Positions 1 through 7,057 of a stretch of 64,000 bases of DNA are shown here, one piece after another. The DNA is from Bacteroidales bacterium (GTDB lineage: Bacteria; Bacteroidota; Bacteroidia; Bacteroidales; Tenuifilaceae). The notes below the pieces were generated by a model. It made no database searches. It worked only from the letters and a program-made list of their open reading frames with translations, and was not told where the DNA came from. The position numbers and the translations under genes are program-made. Where the stretch lies: contig JABFRB010000016.1 of NCBI GenBank assembly GCA_013141385.1, forward strand, positions 248,001 to 312,000, given 5' to 3'. The first letter of the stretch is position 1; each line of letters starts with the position of its first letter.

Positions 1-1448
1 TTACTTACGTTAGCCCCTCCGTCACAAAAATCCTTGGCTATACTCCTCAAGAAATGATGAGTGGTAAGGACATTGATAGATTGACACGAAAAGGTGAAAT
101 TGATCTTAATCAGATGTTTGAAAATCTTAACAACAATCCACGTGTTGCCGTTACTATTCAGTATACATTTATGAAAAAGGACGGTGAGAAGATTTTCCTC
201 GAAGTAACTGGTCGAAATCTACTTGATGATGCTGCAATAAATGGTATTATTCTCAACTCACAGGATATAACAGAACGGAAAAGAGCCGAAAAGGAAGAGC
301 GTATGCGTAGCAAAATGCAATCGCTATCAGAAAACTCGCCCGATGTTATTTTACGACTTAATACTACTGGCCAATTCTTTTACGCTAACCCAATGGTTGA
401 GCGTTATCTTAATATTCCTGCAAGGGAGCTTATAAATCAAACACTCAGTTCAATTCAAATAAATGAAAATCTAGCTAATTTTCTTAAAGATTCGATCAAG
501 GCTATAAAAAATTCTAAGGAAAAGGTCGAAGGAGAACTCTCGTTTCCAACACAAATGGGAGAAACTATAATGCACGTTGTGGCAATTCCTGAATTTAATG
601 AAAATGAACTAGAAACCATACTATTCGTTAGCCATGATATTACAGAGGCCAAACGAATTGAGATGGAGATACAAGATAAAAATCGAAAAATAACTGAGAG
701 TATTAATTACGCCCAACGAATTCAAACATCCATTCTACCCAATAGTAGAATCGTTAGACAGTATTTACCAAAATCATTCATTTTTTATCATCCTCGTGAT
801 GTTGTAAGTGGTGACTTTCCTTGGTTCTTCATTAAAGAGGACTATATATATATTGCCGTAGTCGACTGTACTGGTCATGGGGTTCCTGGTGCGTTGTTAT
901 CTTTTATTGCTTACTTCACGCTGAATAATGTTGTTGACCACGATATATCATATTCAGCAGGAAAAATACTTGACCTATTACACTTTGGTGTTCGAAAAAC
1001 GCTAAAACAGGATAGACCCGATGCTGATGCCAGAGATGGTATGGATATTGCATTATGTAAAATTCAACTTAAAAAACACGAATTGCAGTATGCTGGAGCA
1101 CATCGTCCCTTATTCCTTCTTAGAAAAGGTGAATTACTAGAGTTTAAAGGTGATAGAAAGGCCATTGGAGGAATACCTCACCCTAAAAAAGGAGAAGAAG
1201 ATTTTACAAACCACCAAATAGATATACTATCTGGAGATAAAATATTTTTCTTTTCTGACGGTTTAACCGATCAAGTTGGGGGTGAAGAAAAAAGAAAATA
1301 TGGACCGATGAGAGTTAGGGATTTAATTTTGGGTAACCAAGAATTTACAATGCCCCAATACTCCGAACTTTTTGCAAAAGACTTTGAAGAGTACAAAGGA
1401 AATAACAAGCAAGTTGACGACCTTTTACTTATTGGTATTGAGTTCTAA
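1..1448 (+). CDS. PAS-domain SpoIIE-type (PP2C) serine phosphatase, 5' end outside the window
   Basis: The reading frame is open from base 3, before the first internal ATG at 54, and that stretch encodes a PAS motif (YVSPSVTKILGY). The gene therefore begins upstream and 482 residues are visible. They comprise the rest of one PAS domain, a second PAS domain (about visible residues 95-205), a short coiled linker and a C-terminal PPM/SpoIIE phosphatase domain (about 225-480). Metal-binding acidic motifs are present: VVSGD near 271, VVDCTGHG near 288 and FSDGLTD near the end. Enzymes of this family dephosphorylate an STAS-like protein in a partner switch. The next two genes are SiaB- and SiaC-like, so this is by position the SiaA-equivalent phosphatase, probably acting on the SiaC-like product at 2077. 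The signal sensed by the PAS domains cannot be read from sequence. Confidence 0.9.
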   Translation, partial: TYVSPSVTKILGYTPQEMMSGKDIDRLTRKGEIDLNQMFENLNNNPRVAVTIQYTFMKKDGEKIFLEVTGRNLLDDAAINGIILNSQDITERKRAEKEERMRSKMQSLSENSPDVILRLNTTGQFFYANPMVERYLNIPARELINQTLSSIQINENLANFLKDSIKAIKNSKEKVEGELSFPTQMGETIMHVVAIPEFNENELETILFVSHDITEAKRIEMEIQDKNRKITESINYAQRIQTSILPNSRIVRQYLPKSFIFYHPRDVVSGDFPWFFIKEDYIYIAVVDCTGHGVPGALLSFIAYFTLNNVVDHDISYSAGKILDLLHFGVRKTLKQDRPDADARDGMDIALCKIQLKKHELQYAGAHRPLFLLRKGELLEFKGDRKAIGGIPHPKKGEEDFTNHQIDILSGDKIFFFSDGLTDQVGGEEKRKYGPMRVRDLILGNQEFTMPQYSELFAKDFEEYKGNNKQVDDLLLIGIEF

Positions 1449-1466
1449 TTAAGATTAATATATTTG
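1438..1466 (+). promoter_or_regulatory. candidate Bacteroidota promoter before the siaB-like gene
   Basis: TTG at 1438-1440, an 18-bp spacer, and TATATTTG at 1459-1466 fit the Bacteroidota consensus (TTG, about 19 bp, TAnnTTTG). It overlaps the 3' end of the phosphatase gene and lies 24 bases before the ATG at 1490, so siaB-siaC and the transporter could be transcribed independently of the phosphatase. Pattern match only. Confidence 0.4.
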
Positions 1467-1489
1467 TAAATTATATAACTTTACGGGCT

Positions 1490-2065
1490 ATGGATAAAAA
1501 AAATGTTAGAGGATTTCTTGAGTTCGTTTACGACTTTTATAAGTCGATGAAGGCTCATGAAATCACCCTTGTATATGAGGGAGAAATTACCCATCAGATT
1601 ACCAAAGCCTTTACTTCCCTTACTGAGTCAAATATGGCAAAGGAGGAAGAATCTAATACTGTTCAAAAGAAAGTATTCCATGTTATGGTAGAATGCCTTC
1701 AGAACATCAGTAAACATGCCGACAGCTTTGGTTCGGACGATTTCTTGTTTGCTGGCCGAGGAATCTTTATGGTTAGCAAAGGAGACATAGAATACCATGT
1801 TACTACAGGTAATGTAATCGAGAATGCTAAAATTGAAGAATTATCTCGAATTCTCGATCACATAAACGTATTGGACAAGGAAGGTCTAAAACAACTTTAC
1901 AAAACTCAAATGCGCGAAGGAAGACTTTCCGAAAAAGGTGGTGCAGGACTTGGTTTTATCGATATAGCAAGAAAAACTGGTAGAAAACTTGACTATCATT
2001 TTCTCTCTATCGATGAGGAGACCTCTTTCTTTATTCTAACTTCAACCATTTCCAGAACTGAGTAA
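1490..2065 (+). CDS. SiaB-like protein kinase (DUF6272 type)
   Basis: A 191-residue soluble protein that matches the SiaB family, GHKL-fold kinases that phosphorylate SiaC on threonine. The visible signs are an N-box-like helix (VECLQNISKHAD, about residues 68-79) and a glycine-rich loop (GGAGLGFIDIAR, about 152-163). There is no signal peptide or membrane segment. It sits 41 bases after the SpoIIE phosphatase and 11 bases before the SiaC-like gene, the same phosphatase-kinase-target order as siaABC of Pseudomonas aeruginosa. The inferred role is the kinase that opposes the phosphatase on the SiaC-like protein. The family call is firm; the kinase activity is inferred by analogy. Confidence 0.82.
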   Translation: MDKKNVRGFLEFVYDFYKSMKAHEITLVYEGEITHQITKAFTSLTESNMAKEEESNTVQKKVFHVMVECLQNISKHADSFGSDDFLFAGRGIFMVSKGDIEYHVTTGNVIENAKIEELSRILDHINVLDKEGLKQLYKTQMREGRLSEKGGAGLGFIDIARKTGRKLDYHFLSIDEETSFFILTSTISRTE

Positions 2066-2076
2066 ACAAAACAACT

Positions 2077-2460
2077 ATGAATACCATAAAAATAATGGGG
2101 ACAGATGACACCCCAACTGTAATTCTAGACTCTGAAAACGAAATTTTTGAGATTTCAGGACGCTCACTACCTGAAGATGTAACTGCATTCTATGAGCCGA
2201 TTTTACGTTGGCTCGAAGAGTATTCTTCTAGTCCTAATTCAAAAACCATCTTTACTTTCAAGTTGGTCTATTTTAATACTGCTAGTTCAAAACTATTGCT
2301 CGATATTCTTATGAAACTTGAGCAGATGCATGAAGATGGTAAGGATATGTTAATTCGTTGGTACTATCCGGAAGATGATGAGGACATGCAGGAAGCAGGT
2401 GAAGAGTACGCCGACATCGTGGATGTACCATTCGAACAGGTGAGTTACACTTTAAATTAG
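2077..2460 (+). CDS. SiaC-like regulatory phosphoprotein (DUF1987)
   Basis: A 127-residue acidic protein of the DUF1987/SiaC family. In P. aeruginosa, SiaC is phosphorylated on Thr68 by SiaB and dephosphorylated by SiaA, and the unphosphorylated form activates the diguanylate cyclase SiaD. Here the matching motif YFNTASSK places a threonine at residue 68 exactly, with serines at 70 and 71 as alternative acceptors. The protein ends 30 bases before a large ABC transporter gene, and no cyclase is present. The partner of this SiaC is therefore probably something else, with the transporter or its N-terminal domains the nearest candidate. Family assignment is strong; the output is inference. Confidence 0.87.
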   Translation: MNTIKIMGTDDTPTVILDSENEIFEISGRSLPEDVTAFYEPILRWLEEYSSSPNSKTIFTFKLVYFNTASSKLLLDILMKLEQMHEDGKDMLIRWYYPEDDEDMQEAGEEYADIVDVPFEQVSYTLN

Positions 2461-2490
2461 TAATACCTTTATTATATTAATAGTTAAGCA

Positions 2491-5400
2491 ATGAGTGAAG
2501 AGATTCTCAAAGCGTTAATGCAACTTTTTGCAATAATTGCTAAGCAGGATGAGGGTGTGGTTTCGAATGAAAGGGAATATGTAGTAAACTTTCTCACCCA
2601 GCAGCTTAACGATGAAGCAGTAAAAGAGTATATCAACCTTTTCGATCAGCACGCTGGTTTACTCAATGAAAAAGAGGAAGAAGCAGAAGAAAGCGATAAG
2701 CCCAAAAAGCCTAAGCTTACTTCTGTTAAAGATTCAGTAAAAATATTGGGTATCTGTAAGAAAATCAACAAAACTCTTACCCAAAAACAAAAAATTGTTG
2801 TTCTAGTTCGTCTATATGAACTTATTAATGCTGACCGTAAGTTTACTGAGCAACGGATGGCAATCATCAATACAGTTGCAGAGGTTTTTAAACTTACCAA
2901 GGAAGAAATTAGTGATGTAGAAAACTTTATTGTAAAGAACGAACTTAGAGACCTTGACTTTTCAAGTTTCCTCACCATTCATGATAAGAAAGAGTTCGGT
3001 GATTCCTGCAAACATATCCCAACAGAGGCACTTGATGGATTTATTATCATTTTACAAATAAAGAGCGTTGATCTTTATTTCTTAAGATACACTGGAACAG
3101 AGGATATCAACCTCAATGGACTACCAATTAATAGTCGTAGAATTTATCTTTTTGCCAGTGGTAGTTCAATTAAACTACCAAAGGGTAAACCTATCTACTA
3201 CACCGATGTTGTTGCCCATTTTCTTGCTGATTCCACCACGACTCGAATTTCCTACAAGGTTCAAAACCTTGAATATCGATTTAAAAGCGGAGCTATTGGC
3301 TTACGCAATATCAACTTCTCCGAGGGTCATGGCAAGTTGATTGGTATTATGGGTGCCAGCGGTGCTGGTAAAACCACATTATTAAATGTGCTTGCAGGTA
3401 TCGAAATGCCAACATCTGGAAATATACATATAAATGGTATAGATTTTCATAATGAAAAAGACAAACTCGAAGGGGTTATAGGTGTTATTCCCCAAGATGA
3501 TCTTCTAATTGAAGAATTAACAGTCTTTCAAAACCTTTACTACAATGCTAAGCTATGTTTCAAAGATAAAACCGAAGAAGAATTAGTACAACTAGTCCAT
3601 AAAACACTTTATAATCTTGGCCTATTAGAAAGAAAAGATTTAAAAGTTGGAACACCATTAAATAAGATGATTTCAGGTGGTCAGCGAAAAAGATTAAATA
3701 TAGCCCTTGAACTTATTCGCGAACCATCTATTCTATTTGTAGATGAACCAACATCCGGTTTATCCTCTCGTGACTCGGAGAATGTTATGGATTTACTTCG
3801 AGAGTTAACGCTAAAAGGTAAACTGATTTTTGTAGTAATCCACCAGCCATCATCGGAAATCTATAAGATGTTCGACAATATGATGATTCTCGATACAGGT
3901 GGCTACATGATTTATTACGGAAATCCCGTTGAGTCTGTTATGTATTTCAAACGGCTCGATATGCAGATTAACAGCGATGTAGGTGAATGTCCAACTTGTG
4001 GTAACGTTAACCCAGAGCTAATATTTAACATCATTGAGGCAAAAGTGGTTGACGAATTTGGTCGTTACACCAATATCCGTAAGGTTTCACCACCTAAATG
4101 GGAGGGATATTTTATTGATAACATCAAACTCGATAAAGTTCCCGATGAAACAAGTCCTCCTCCAAAATCTCTCAATATTCCTTCAAGGATAAAACAATTC
4201 TTTATTTATACCACCAGAGATTTTCTTTCGAAGGTTAGTAATACGCAGTACATTATCCTTAACCTACTTGAAACTCCATTACTTGCATTTATCCTATCAT
4301 TTGTTATCCGCTACATTGCTGATCCAAATTCTAATATCTATATTTTCAGAGAAAACGAGAATATAAACATTTACATCTTTATGTCTCTTATTGTTGCTCT
4401 ATTTATAGGGTTAACAGTAAGTGCCGAAGAAATTTTCCGTGACAGAAAAATACTTAAACGCGAAGCATTTCTCAACCTAAGCCGATCAAGCTATTTATTC
4501 TCAAAAATTTTCATACTTGTATTCCTTTCCGCCATTCAATCTATTGCATTTGTACTAATTGCAAATAGCATCCTTGAAATTCAAGGAATGTATTTCGATT
4601 ACTGGCTGGTGCTATTCTCAACAGCAGTATTTGCCAATATGCTTGGATTAAATATCTCTGCAACATTTAACTCTGCGGTCACAATTTATATTGTAATTCC
4701 ATTGATAATGATACCAATGATGGTTCTTTCTGGAGCCATGTTTAGCTTCGAAAAACTAAACCGTGTAGTTGGTAGCATCAATAAAGTTCCCCTTGTTGCT
4801 GAGTTTATGGTTACTAAATGGGGCTATGAGGCATTATTAGTACATCAATTCAAGGATAATAAGTTTGAAAAAGACATCTATGAGTTTGAAAAAACTGCTC
4901 GAAATGCAGATTTTAAAACAGTTTACTATATCCCTGAACTTGAAAAGCGTTTAAATCAGTGTATTGAACTTTCAGAAAAAAAGGACGATCCGAAGATTAA
5001 ACCTAAATTTGACGATAACCTCGCAGTTGTTCACAAAGCCATTCAAAAAGAAACTCAAAAAGAATCCCCAGAAATTACTTTTGACCAGCTTGAAAATCTA
5101 AATACCCAAAAATTCACAAGCGATATTGGTTTTTCTGCCCTTGGTTACATAGAACAGCTTAAAGAGCATTACTCAAAGATTTTCAATGCAGCAGATCAAA
5201 AGCGCGATAGGATTATCAACTATTGGAAAGATAAATATAAAGGCGCTTTTGAAGCAAAACGTAGAGCTTATCATAACGAAAGCATCTCCGATTTAGCAAC
5301 AAAAGCTTTTGAAAAAAATCCAATTTTACAATATAAGGATGAGCTTATTGAACAAATTGATCCAGTGTATCGCGATCCTAATCCTAGTTATTATTTAGAT

Positions 5401-5583
5401 ATTCGAACTCATTTTCTTTCCCCTCGAAAGCATTTCATGGGGAGATTATTCGATACATTTTGGTTTAATGTTACTATAATCTGGTTAATGACAGTAGTTT
5501 GTTACATCACTTTGTACTATGAATCGTTAAAGAAGTTATTAGAACTATTTTCGAAAATAAAGCTACCATCTTTATCTAAATAA
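2491..5583 (+). CDS. TerB-like / ABC ATPase / ABC-2 permease fusion transporter
   Basis: A 1030-residue half-transporter of the ABCG (White) layout with extra N-terminal domains. Residues 1-150 are helical and acidic and resemble a TerB fold. Residues 155-250 are beta-rich and FHA-like in pattern, without a convincing phosphopeptide-binding motif. The ATPase follows: Walker A GASGAGKTT at 288-296, signature ISGGQ at 394-398, and Walker B ILFVDEPTSG near 412-421. A CPTCG motif near residue 505 may bind zinc. The membrane part has about six helices, with a charged, coil-rich soluble insert (about 790-960) between the fifth and last helix. It probably works as a dimer in the inner membrane; the substrate is unknown. 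It follows the siaC-like gene by 30 bases, which suggests control by that partner switch. Confidence 0.85.
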   Translation: MSEEILKALMQLFAIIAKQDEGVVSNEREYVVNFLTQQLNDEAVKEYINLFDQHAGLLNEKEEEAEESDKPKKPKLTSVKDSVKILGICKKINKTLTQKQKIVVLVRLYELINADRKFTEQRMAIINTVAEVFKLTKEEISDVENFIVKNELRDLDFSSFLTIHDKKEFGDSCKHIPTEALDGFIIILQIKSVDLYFLRYTGTEDINLNGLPINSRRIYLFASGSSIKLPKGKPIYYTDVVAHFLADSTTTRISYKVQNLEYRFKSGAIGLRNINFSEGHGKLIGIMGASGAGKTTLLNVLAGIEMPTSGNIHINGIDFHNEKDKLEGVIGVIPQDDLLIEELTVFQNLYYNAKLCFKDKTEEELVQLVHKTLYNLGLLERKDLKVGTPLNKMISGGQRKRLNIALELIREPSILFVDEPTSGLSSRDSENVMDLLRELTLKGKLIFVVIHQPSSEIYKMFDNMMILDTGGYMIYYGNPVESVMYFKRLDMQINSDVGECPTCGNVNPELIFNIIEAKVVDEFGRYTNIRKVSPPKWEGYFIDNIKLDKVPDETSPPPKSLNIPSRIKQFFIYTTRDFLSKVSNTQYIILNLLETPLLAFILSFVIRYIADPNSNIYIFRENENINIYIFMSLIVALFIGLTVSAEEIFRDRKILKREAFLNLSRSSYLFSKIFILVFLSAIQSIAFVLIANSILEIQGMYFDYWLVLFSTAVFANMLGLNISATFNSAVTIYIVIPLIMIPMMVLSGAMFSFEKLNRVVGSINKVPLVAEFMVTKWGYEALLVHQFKDNKFEKDIYEFEKTARNADFKTVYYIPELEKRLNQCIELSEKKDDPKIKPKFDDNLAVVHKAIQKETQKESPEITFDQLENLNTQKFTSDIGFSALGYIEQLKEHYSKIFNAADQKRDRIINYWKDKYKGAFEAKRRAYHNESISDLATKAFEKNPILQYKDELIEQIDPVYRDPNPSYYLDIRTHFLSPRKHFMGRLFDTFWFNVTIIWLMTVVCYITLYYESLKKLLELFSKIKLPSLSK

Positions 5584-5645
5584 ATATTTTTTCTATCTTT
5601 ACTTGATTACTTTTATGTAAAACATCTTTTATTCCGGGTTTCACC

Positions 5646-6560
5646 ATGACGAGGAGATTTATATTTTTTATAGTCGTTTCCATACTGTTTTCATCATGCA
5701 ATTCTTGTAGGAATTCAAACACTGACAAGAATCTTAATGTTGATTTTGATATACCCGACTCCATTAAGGAAGATAAACCTCTTCCAATCTCTGCAAAAAC
5801 TATTGAAGAAATGTCAAATATTTCTTCACCCATCGAAACTGCTGCTGTAATTAAGGGTCTTAAGATTCCGTTCAATAAAGATTTAATTGCTAGTACAGAT
5901 TACGCTGAAAATTTCAATACGAATTTTGCAAAGGCATTAGGATTGGGGATGTATGGATGTGACCTAGGATATCTAAACATGTATGGTAAAACATCAATGG
6001 TTCTTAACTATATATCAACAATAAGATCCTTAGCTGATGGTATTCAGGTTGGTCAGTTTTTCGATTTTTCTACCCTAAAAAGGCTAGCAACCAACAATGA
6101 GAACATCGATTCTCTTGTGCTCATCTCTCAGCAAAGTATGACAAGAATAGATAACTACCTTCGGGAGAATAACAGATCTAACCTAAGCGTTGTAATTGTT
6201 GCTGGAGTTTGGATTGAGGGTTTATATATATCTAGTATGGTTACTCAAGAAACGAACCATAAAAGGATGAGAGAAACCGTTGGCGAGCAAAAAGAAATCA
6301 TTGGTCCACTTATGATTCTTATGAATAACTATAGGAAAGATCCGAACATGGCGAGGTTGATTGAGAATTTTGAAGAGATTAAATCAATATACAGTAATGT
6401 GAAAATAACCTCCGAGGTTGGAGAACCTACTGCTGTTGAAGTAAATGGGGTTCTTACAATTAAACCTAATGACACTCAGAATATTGATATGAGTGATGAA
6501 ACCTTAAAAAAAATTATTAATAAGGTTCAGGAGATTAGAAATAAACTTTTAAAAGGATAA
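5646..6560 (+). CDS. exported lipoprotein of unknown function
   Basis: 304 residues. The N-terminus is a lipoprotein signal: two arginines, a hydrophobic stretch and the lipobox LFSSC with Cys18 as the lipidated residue. The mature part is mostly helical, with no enzyme motif I recognise. It starts 62 bases after the ABC transporter gene and is followed 12 bases later by a second exported protein, so the two probably form the end of the same transcription unit. It could be an accessory or cargo of the transporter; this rests on position only. The start ATG gives a signal peptide of normal length. Confidence 0.7.
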   Translation: MTRRFIFFIVVSILFSSCNSCRNSNTDKNLNVDFDIPDSIKEDKPLPISAKTIEEMSNISSPIETAAVIKGLKIPFNKDLIASTDYAENFNTNFAKALGLGMYGCDLGYLNMYGKTSMVLNYISTIRSLADGIQVGQFFDFSTLKRLATNNENIDSLVLISQQSMTRIDNYLRENNRSNLSVVIVAGVWIEGLYISSMVTQETNHKRMRETVGEQKEIIGPLMILMNNYRKDPNMARLIENFEEIKSIYSNVKITSEVGEPTAVEVNGVLTIKPNDTQNIDMSDETLKKIINKVQEIRNKLLKG

Positions 6561-6572
6561 CACTAGAATTTT

Positions 6573-7010
6573 ATGAAAAATAAGTTCCTGATTTTTGCAA
6601 TATTAATTTTCCTAGTGGGCTTTTCGGGAACCACTTTTGCCCAAACAGAGGATGAACTCGTTGAAATATGTGGTATGGTTGCTAAGGATGCCACATATCT
6701 TAAGGATTTCAAGGTTAGGTTGGATGCAGGTGATCCCCCTCCCCTTCAACGATTTTCTGTAATTCTAAAAAAAGACATAAAATATCGATTTTCTGTCTGT
6801 AACTCTAAAGATATGGAAGGAAAGGTTGTTCTGGAACTTTTCGACAATAATAGGTTAATTGCTACCACATATGTTATTGCTACTGGAAAAGATTATCCGT
6901 CCATTGATGTTGTATGTCAAAAAACTGGAGCCTATCACCTCTCATTCAAATTCAAAGAAGGGAAACCGGGACTTGCGGTTGGTTTGCTATCGCTAGTTGA
7001 AACGCTTTAA
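6573..7010 (+). CDS. small exported protein of unknown function
   Basis: 145 residues with a classical Sec signal peptide (hydrophobic core at about 5-19, cleavage after TTFAQ at residue 24). The mature portion of about 120 residues is rich in beta strands and hydrophilic, and reads like a small beta-sandwich (for example RFSVILKKDIKYRFSV and VVLELFDNNRLIATTYV). There are two cysteines, in EICGM and FSVCN, and a third near the end in VVCQK. It is probably periplasmic or surface-exposed. It is the last gene of the plus-strand run and ends exactly one base before a long bidirectional terminator. No function is recognisable. Confidence 0.65.
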   Translation: MKNKFLIFAILIFLVGFSGTTFAQTEDELVEICGMVAKDATYLKDFKVRLDAGDPPPLQRFSVILKKDIKYRFSVCNSKDMEGKVVLELFDNNRLIATTYVIATGKDYPSIDVVCQKTGAYHLSFKFKEGKPGLAVGLLSLVETL

Positions 7011-7057
7011 ATCTTATAACAAAAACCCGACTTGAAGTCGGGTTTTTGTTATAAGAT
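7011..7057. terminator. bidirectional intrinsic terminator, 22-bp perfect inverted repeat
   Basis: Arms 7011-7032 and 7036-7057 are perfectly complementary around a 3-base loop (tga). The core is ACCCGACT/AGTCGGGT flanked by A and T tracts, so it works as a terminator in both directions. It separates the convergent exported-protein gene and PfkB kinase gene and contains the last codons of the kinase gene. Confidence 0.9.

Follow-up and report, generated by a model that had tools for sequence, protein, structure and literature searches.

The first 7 kb of the window analyzed here, the 64,000-nucleotide stretch at positions 248,001 to 312,000 of contig JABFRB010000016.1 (G000:C16:248001-312000) in the 5.5 Mb genome of a Bacteroidales bacterium of the family Tenuifilaceae, carry a Sia-type switch, made up of a sensor phosphatase, a SiaB-family kinase, and a SiaC-family phosphoprotein, with an ATP-binding cassette (ABC) exporter in the place of the output enzyme. 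This wiring is real, widespread, and well supported by conserved gene order and by co-occurrence across genomes. That the switch has the exporter as its output, with SiaC gating it directly through its TerB domain, seems to us rather more probable than any other account, although we infer the direct gating from the conservation of genes, of a motif, and of co-occurrence and not from biochemistry. A previous sequence-only reading of this DNA had proposed direct gating of export with the N-terminal domains of the transporter as the docking site for SiaC. Its wiring stands, whereas the direct dock would follow from a motif in TerB and a conserved face of SiaC, and the docking stalk known from other Sia outputs is missing.

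Profile matches place six co-directional genes on the forward strand, separated by 41, 11, 30, 62, and 12 bases, just where they had been read, and in the order SpoIIE phosphatase, SiaB, SiaC. The first (1..1448) encodes the C-terminal ~480 residues of a sensor phosphatase of PAS-PAS-SpoIIE/PP2C type (SpoIIE PF07228, E 4e-18; PAS domains), which scores 170 bits over residues 215-479 with the NCBIfam SiaA model, under the 700-bit equivalog cut-off. The second (1490..2065) encodes a SiaB-family protein kinase of 191 residues (DUF6272, E 2e-43), which reaches 175.9 bits with the SiaB-family kinase model NF038262 (cut-off 85), fails to reach the Pseudomonas aeruginosa SiaB equivalog model (87 of 225), and displays, when read by eye, a GHKL N-box (ECLQN) and G-box (GGAGLGF). 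The third (2077..2460) encodes a SiaC-family phosphoprotein of 127 residues (PF09345, E 6e-42, 142.6 bits), which aligns without gaps with P. aeruginosa SiaC (6kko), keeping N67 and with T68 in register. The threonine noticed earlier is indeed at exactly residue 68, within YFNTASSK, but it is a family-wide feature and no surprise by itself. Exactly 30 bases after siaC, as had been read, starts the exporter gene (2491..5583), which encodes a 1030-residue fusion of TerB, FHA-like, ABC ATPase, and ABCG-type permease domains. Pfam recognizes TerB (E 6e-7 with the full protein, above gathering), ABC_tran (5e-31), and ABC2_membrane (1e-20), and the protein carries a Walker A motif (GASGAGKT, 288), SGGQR (395), a Walker B motif (LFVDEP, 415), and CPTCGN (500). 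The ATPase domain precedes a permease with six hydrophobic segments, the fifth and sixth of which are separated by a loop of ~245 residues; an ATPase domain ahead of the permease, six transmembrane segments, and a large loop before the last make up the ABCG-type layout, and TIGR00955 matches with an E-value of 2e-70, below that model's cut-off.

Across 84,980 species genomes the transporter has at least 576 confirmed relatives, the best 80 of which were examined. In 53 of these, siaC lies immediately upstream on the same strand (gaps of 15-356 bp), and the order CheR, CheB, GAF protein, phosphatase, siaB, siaC, ABC transporter, lipoprotein, and secreted protein is seen again in Bacteroidales, Marinilabiliaceae, Salinivirgaceae, Cytophagales, and others. 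Cultured environmental bacteria that carry the operon include Anaerophaga thermohalophila DSM 12881 (L123), Flexithrix dorotheae DSM 6795 (L122), and Nafulsella turpanensis (L109). For 44 loci the flanks reach 4 kb or more on each side; in 36 of these both siaB and siaC are found within 6 kb, and in 32 siaC is directly upstream. In several other families a second layout is found, in which siaB-siaC is convergent with the ABC, secreted-protein, and lipoprotein genes, and a paralogous set of this convergent kind exists in the same genome as the window (L010; transporter 48% and lipoprotein 31% identical). Since the convergent order occurs as well, the link between siaBC and the transporter survives rearrangement. 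Moreover, when 395 genomes of the class were sampled, 198 carried the transporter and 210 SiaB, with both in 189, the transporter only in nine, SiaB only in 21, and neither in 176 (phi 0.85; the genomes are related, so that a p-value would not be literal). A SiaC search of the nine transporter-only genomes found none, and the same query detected SiaC in 21 of 22 module genomes. Thus, most relatives of this transporter, on which the sequence-only reading had staked itself, do come with the switch.

The same reading had also depended on SiaC having no cyclase partner elsewhere in this genome, and it had seen no cyclase in the locus. No GGDEF domain was found in the whole genome by a search that was positive in 8 of 14 control genomes, nor in 20 of 22 other transporter-bearing genomes. 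Furthermore, four genomes (G049, G146, G186, and G405) possess one SiaC each, located in the exporter operon, and no GGDEF protein; therefore, SiaC cannot act there through SiaD, and the transporter is the neighboring candidate partner of the only SiaC. It is conceivable, though on balance unlikely, that SiaC acts instead on some other unlinked target, such as a histidine kinase, another phosphatase, or a non-GGDEF effector, and that the transporter merely shares a transcript and a signal with it. The connection between SiaC and the transporter comes from genes, the SiaD-type docking motif is missing from the transporter, and the genome of the window contains 20 SiaC domains (and five SiaB domains) with other neighbors, all of which would suit such a target; however, the link is kept in the convergent, and hence separately transcribed, order and in the single-SiaC genomes, and the absence of SiaC goes with the absence of the TerB motif described below.

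What follows siaBC differs between classes. In a phylum-wide sample of 396 genomes, SiaB exceeds the cut-off in 22, and outside the class the genes after siaB-siaC encode GGDEF cyclases, histidine kinases, or a class III cyclase. These outputs have in common an N-terminal stalk, EY..L...Y..LL.Q..K(I/L)TRI(G/S)D.TQ.KL, whose motif matches the residues of SiaD that a crystal structure shows in contact with SiaC, namely K77, R80, I81, S82, D83, and Q86 (PMC8457831). The same siaBC pair before differing outputs with a shared stalk indicates that SiaABC is a modular input, in which the exporter occupies the place of the output. The opposite direction, with the exporter, lipoprotein, and secreted protein forming a detector to which the switch responds, is improbable in our judgment. 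Flux-sensing ABC transporters act as detectors for two-component systems, and a large periplasmic loop, two dedicated exported proteins, and a sensor phosphatase and CheR/CheB within the same operon would all be at home in such a device, but the recognizable genes in this slot in other classes encode output enzymes and the phosphatase carries sensor domains of its own. As a separate observation, this portable stalk is common to the diguanylate cyclases, histidine kinases, and class III cyclases and to PP2C-type and stand-alone ~90-residue proteins beside siaBC (L142, L143, L145-L151, L153, L154, L158, and L161-L163).

Regarding the direct docking of SiaC on the exporter, one line of evidence is the SiaC face. 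Transporter-linked SiaC proteins retain Y65, N67, and T68, while positions of the SiaD-binding face become R29, L31, A69, A107, and I/L114, a signature that the window SiaC carries with I114. All five residues are found in 49 of 53 operon-linked SiaC proteins, and 14 of the 15 SiaC proteins in the convergent set have three of them, as opposed to none of the five in any of 16 stalk-type SiaC proteins, and the full signature occurs in 0 of the 18 other SiaC domains of the same genome. Such a conserved, partner-specific face would fit direct docking.

The second line comes from the transporter, which has a motif of its own at residues 75-89 of the TerB domain, K(L/R)TSV(K/R)DSV(K/R)xLxIC, with the core TSV(K/R)DSV. 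In the window this proposed SiaC-docking motif reads KLTSVKDSVKILGIC (2713..2757, forward strand) and lies at the start of a TerB helix (helix 79-93 in the model). Transporters linked to siaBC (72, one row of which lacks the N-terminus) were compared with nine from SiaC-less genomes. S82 is present in 71 of 71 and V83 in 70 of 71 linked proteins, and both are present in 0 of 9 of the SiaC-less set and in 0 of 4 members of a well-supported clade of second paralogues that are unlinked to siaBC and nested among linked ones. The SiaC-less set retains most of the positions conserved in the linked set in its ATPase domain (0.87) and permease (0.84), but fewer in TerB (0.56) and in residues 73-105 (0.50). 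Transporters distant from siaBC in SiaC-containing genomes mostly retain the motif, as expected if SiaC acts in trans.

Several results weigh against direct docking and have to be set beside these. The SiaD-type stalk was found in no transporter at E 10 with a stalk hidden Markov model run over 2216 open reading frames, a search that did match cyclases, kinases, phosphatases, and stand-alone proteins, and 8 of the 44 well-flanked relatives are without siaBC within 6 kb. The same SiaC face must also contact SiaB and the phosphatase; its divergence over all 14 interface positions is not significant (p 0.19), and the p-value of 0.012 for 11 peripheral positions belongs to a subset picked after the fact. 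The association of the motif with SiaC rests on about three independent contrasts, and an independent-contrast test gave two to three pairs, concordant and too few for significance. In the tree, the SiaC-less transporters branch off basally or fall into one or two clades, and they are more diverged overall; some of them may be ancestral, so that the motif was never present. Finally, the coevolution check that the sequence-only reading proposed for SiaC and the transporter N-terminus gave no particular signal for TerB at the level of distance correlations. In a mirror-tree analysis of 43 complete operons all parts correlate and TerB does not stand out, its partial r with SiaC being -0.11, against 0.24 for the FHA-like domain and 0.23 for the ATPase domain. 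Separately, the transporter octapeptide KLTSVKDS was tried as a counterpart of the stalk core K(I/L)TR(I/V)(G/S)DS; it is the best 8-mer in the protein and a weak one (E ~0.03 per protein), the likeness is lost with longer profiles, and the convergent-type transporters are one residue shorter, and it was not used as evidence.

As for the N-terminal domains of the exporter, TerB is confirmed by Pfam, with matches in 66 of 67 transporter relatives at E up to 0.05, whereas the FHA-like domain is a candidate fold from the model, Pfam FHA giving no match in any of the 67. In the AlphaFold model the N-terminus (predicted local distance difference test, pLDDT, 90) begins with the TerB helices, and a small beta domain comes after them. 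Foldseek relates the helical part to the TerB-like protein 2h5n, and its top PDB matches for the beta domain are FHA domains, with probabilities mostly of 0.95-1.0 but E-values of 0.03-0.1 and TM-scores below 0.5. Aligned with MEK1, the beta domain keeps only the second NG of the SxxH and SxNGT loops (the upstream loop was judged by eye), and it appears to have lost the phosphothreonine-binding loops. This bears on a mechanism modeled on Rv1747 of Mycobacterium tuberculosis, an FHA-ABC exporter that a phosphothreonine protein keeps switched off (PMC5549992); export would here be inhibited by phosphorylated SiaC bound to the FHA-like domain. The presence of an FHA-like fold in the exporter model invites this comparison; nevertheless, with the binding loops apparently gone, no Pfam FHA match in the family, and phosphorylation blocking binding in the SiaC-SiaD complex (PMC8457831), we consider it very improbable.

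In the favored mechanism, with SiaC docking on TerB, the sensor phosphatase (PAS/GAF and PP2C) and the SiaB kinase would set the phosphorylation of SiaC at T68, and the dephosphorylated protein would, by homology to Pseudomonas, be the binding form. The SiaC face around T68 would then dock on motif 75-89 of the cytoplasmic TerB domain, and docking would switch the export of a substrate in one direction or the other, while the large loop of the exporter, the lipoprotein, and the small secreted protein may handle the substrate in the periplasm. If this is true, a STAS-like partner would exert reversible phospho-control over an ABC transporter, a kind of control that for MlaB is so far a proposal, and the SiaC proteins of genomes that lack cyclic di-GMP cyclases would gain a function; the motif at 75-89 indicates which residues to mutate first. 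A wider claim, that a widespread, hitherto undescribed class of Bacteroidia exporters is gated directly by a STAS-like phosphoprotein docking on the TSV(K/R)DSV motif of TerB, and that SiaABC is a general plug-in switch that drives cyclases, kinases, or transporters through an exchangeable docking element, appears to us evenly poised between true and false.

The locus shares with SiaABCD of P. aeruginosa (PMC7647112, PMC8457831) the order phosphatase, SiaB, SiaC and an output gene after siaC, and differs from it in that the output is an ABCG-type exporter and not the cyclase SiaD, in a genome without GGDEF proteins, that the SiaC contact face and the docking motif are different, and that CheR, CheB, and GAF genes are added upstream. 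Similarly, the ABC transporter MlaFEDB has bound to it MlaB, a small protein of STAS fold in which a Thr is conserved, and an MlaB T52E mutant has been tested and phospho-control proposed (PMC7367683). However, MlaB sits stably on the ATPase domain as a subunit and is not known to have a kinase or phosphatase, whereas both enzymes are encoded here and the proposed dock is the TerB domain. Rv1747/PknF (PMC5549992, PMC3908365) likewise combines an ABC exporter, an N-terminal FHA domain, and Ser/Thr phospho-control, but its FHA I binds phosphothreonine, no TerB domain has been reported in it, and PknF is not of the SiaB family. The SpoIIAA/SpoIIAB/SpoIIE and Rsb partner switches also consist of a PP2C phosphatase, a GHKL kinase, and a STAS-like phosphoprotein, although their classic output is a sigma factor instead of an exporter. 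The searchable literature holds nothing relevant on a link between SiaC and an ABC transporter or on a TerB-FHA-ABC protein, no described system combining the features of SiaABCD, MlaB-MlaF, and Rv1747, and SiaABC only as the controller of one diguanylate cyclase in Pseudomonas. The authors of the SiaC structure suggested that SiaC-like proteins control neighboring proteins in general (PMC8457831), a suggestion that can be tested on this locus and the hundreds related to it, given outputs that span GGDEF, histidine kinase, and class III cyclase proteins and an exporter in about half of the sampled genomes of the class. Partner-switch genes are also found beside the transporter itself: in the SiaC-less genomes G348 and G682, a STAS protein, an RsbW-like ATPase, and a response-regulator/SpoIIE (PP2C) phosphatase adjoin it (L050:2984-6847, L169:2797-6679), which is suggestive of a second kind of switch for the same transporter; G700, the third genome of that family, is without this set.

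The two exported proteins read after the transporter are confirmed as a lipoprotein of 304 residues (5646..6560) and a small secreted protein of 145 residues (exp145, 6573..7010), whose signal peptide is read directly in the sequence; neither belongs to a Pfam family at curated cut-off. The lipoprotein, whose C18 is invariant among 58 relatives, is associated with the transporter across relatives and is found near it in 67 of the 80, and exp145 in 62 of the 80. A PDB fold search with the lipoprotein model (pLDDT 87) gave nothing better than chance, and a profile match to SPC105 (E 0.002), which spans only a helical stretch, was not used. In all nine SiaC-less genomes (L165-L172, L050) exp145 was undetected near the transporter, with the lipoprotein mostly present; exp145 could be a part of the switch instead of the transport machinery, or it could have diverged beyond detection.

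An inverted repeat (aaaaacccgactt-gaagtcgggttttt, 7021..7047, forward strand), read directly in the sequence and flanked by runs of A and T, is the probable terminator that closes the operon. At the other end, the listed genes of the unit held but its extent did not. The full phosphatase has ~870 residues and its gene begins before the window does, at G000:C16:246836 (L009:3837), and the GAF protein, CheB, and CheR genes precede it, all outside the window, so that the operon is larger than the first 7 kb. The methylation enzymes CheR and CheB stand at the head of the operon (L009:1640-3827; also in L043, L044, and L045). Five genomes (G049, G146, G186, G399, and G405) have no MCP signaling domain, and CheR and CheB were confirmed in G049; thus, CheR/CheB cannot act on a classical chemoreceptor there.

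The SiaC domains of the window's own genome (L011, L012, L013-L020) lie several in tandem, and two proteins have two such domains each (L018). At residue 68, ten of the 20 have T, seven S, two R, and one G. At loci L109, L113, and L116, a second phosphatase/siaC/siaB set, whose SiaC signature differs, is found directly downstream of the exporter operon. In the window's own genome (L013:3024-4928) a siaC gene is followed 24 bases on by the gene for a glycosyl hydrolase family 16 protein.

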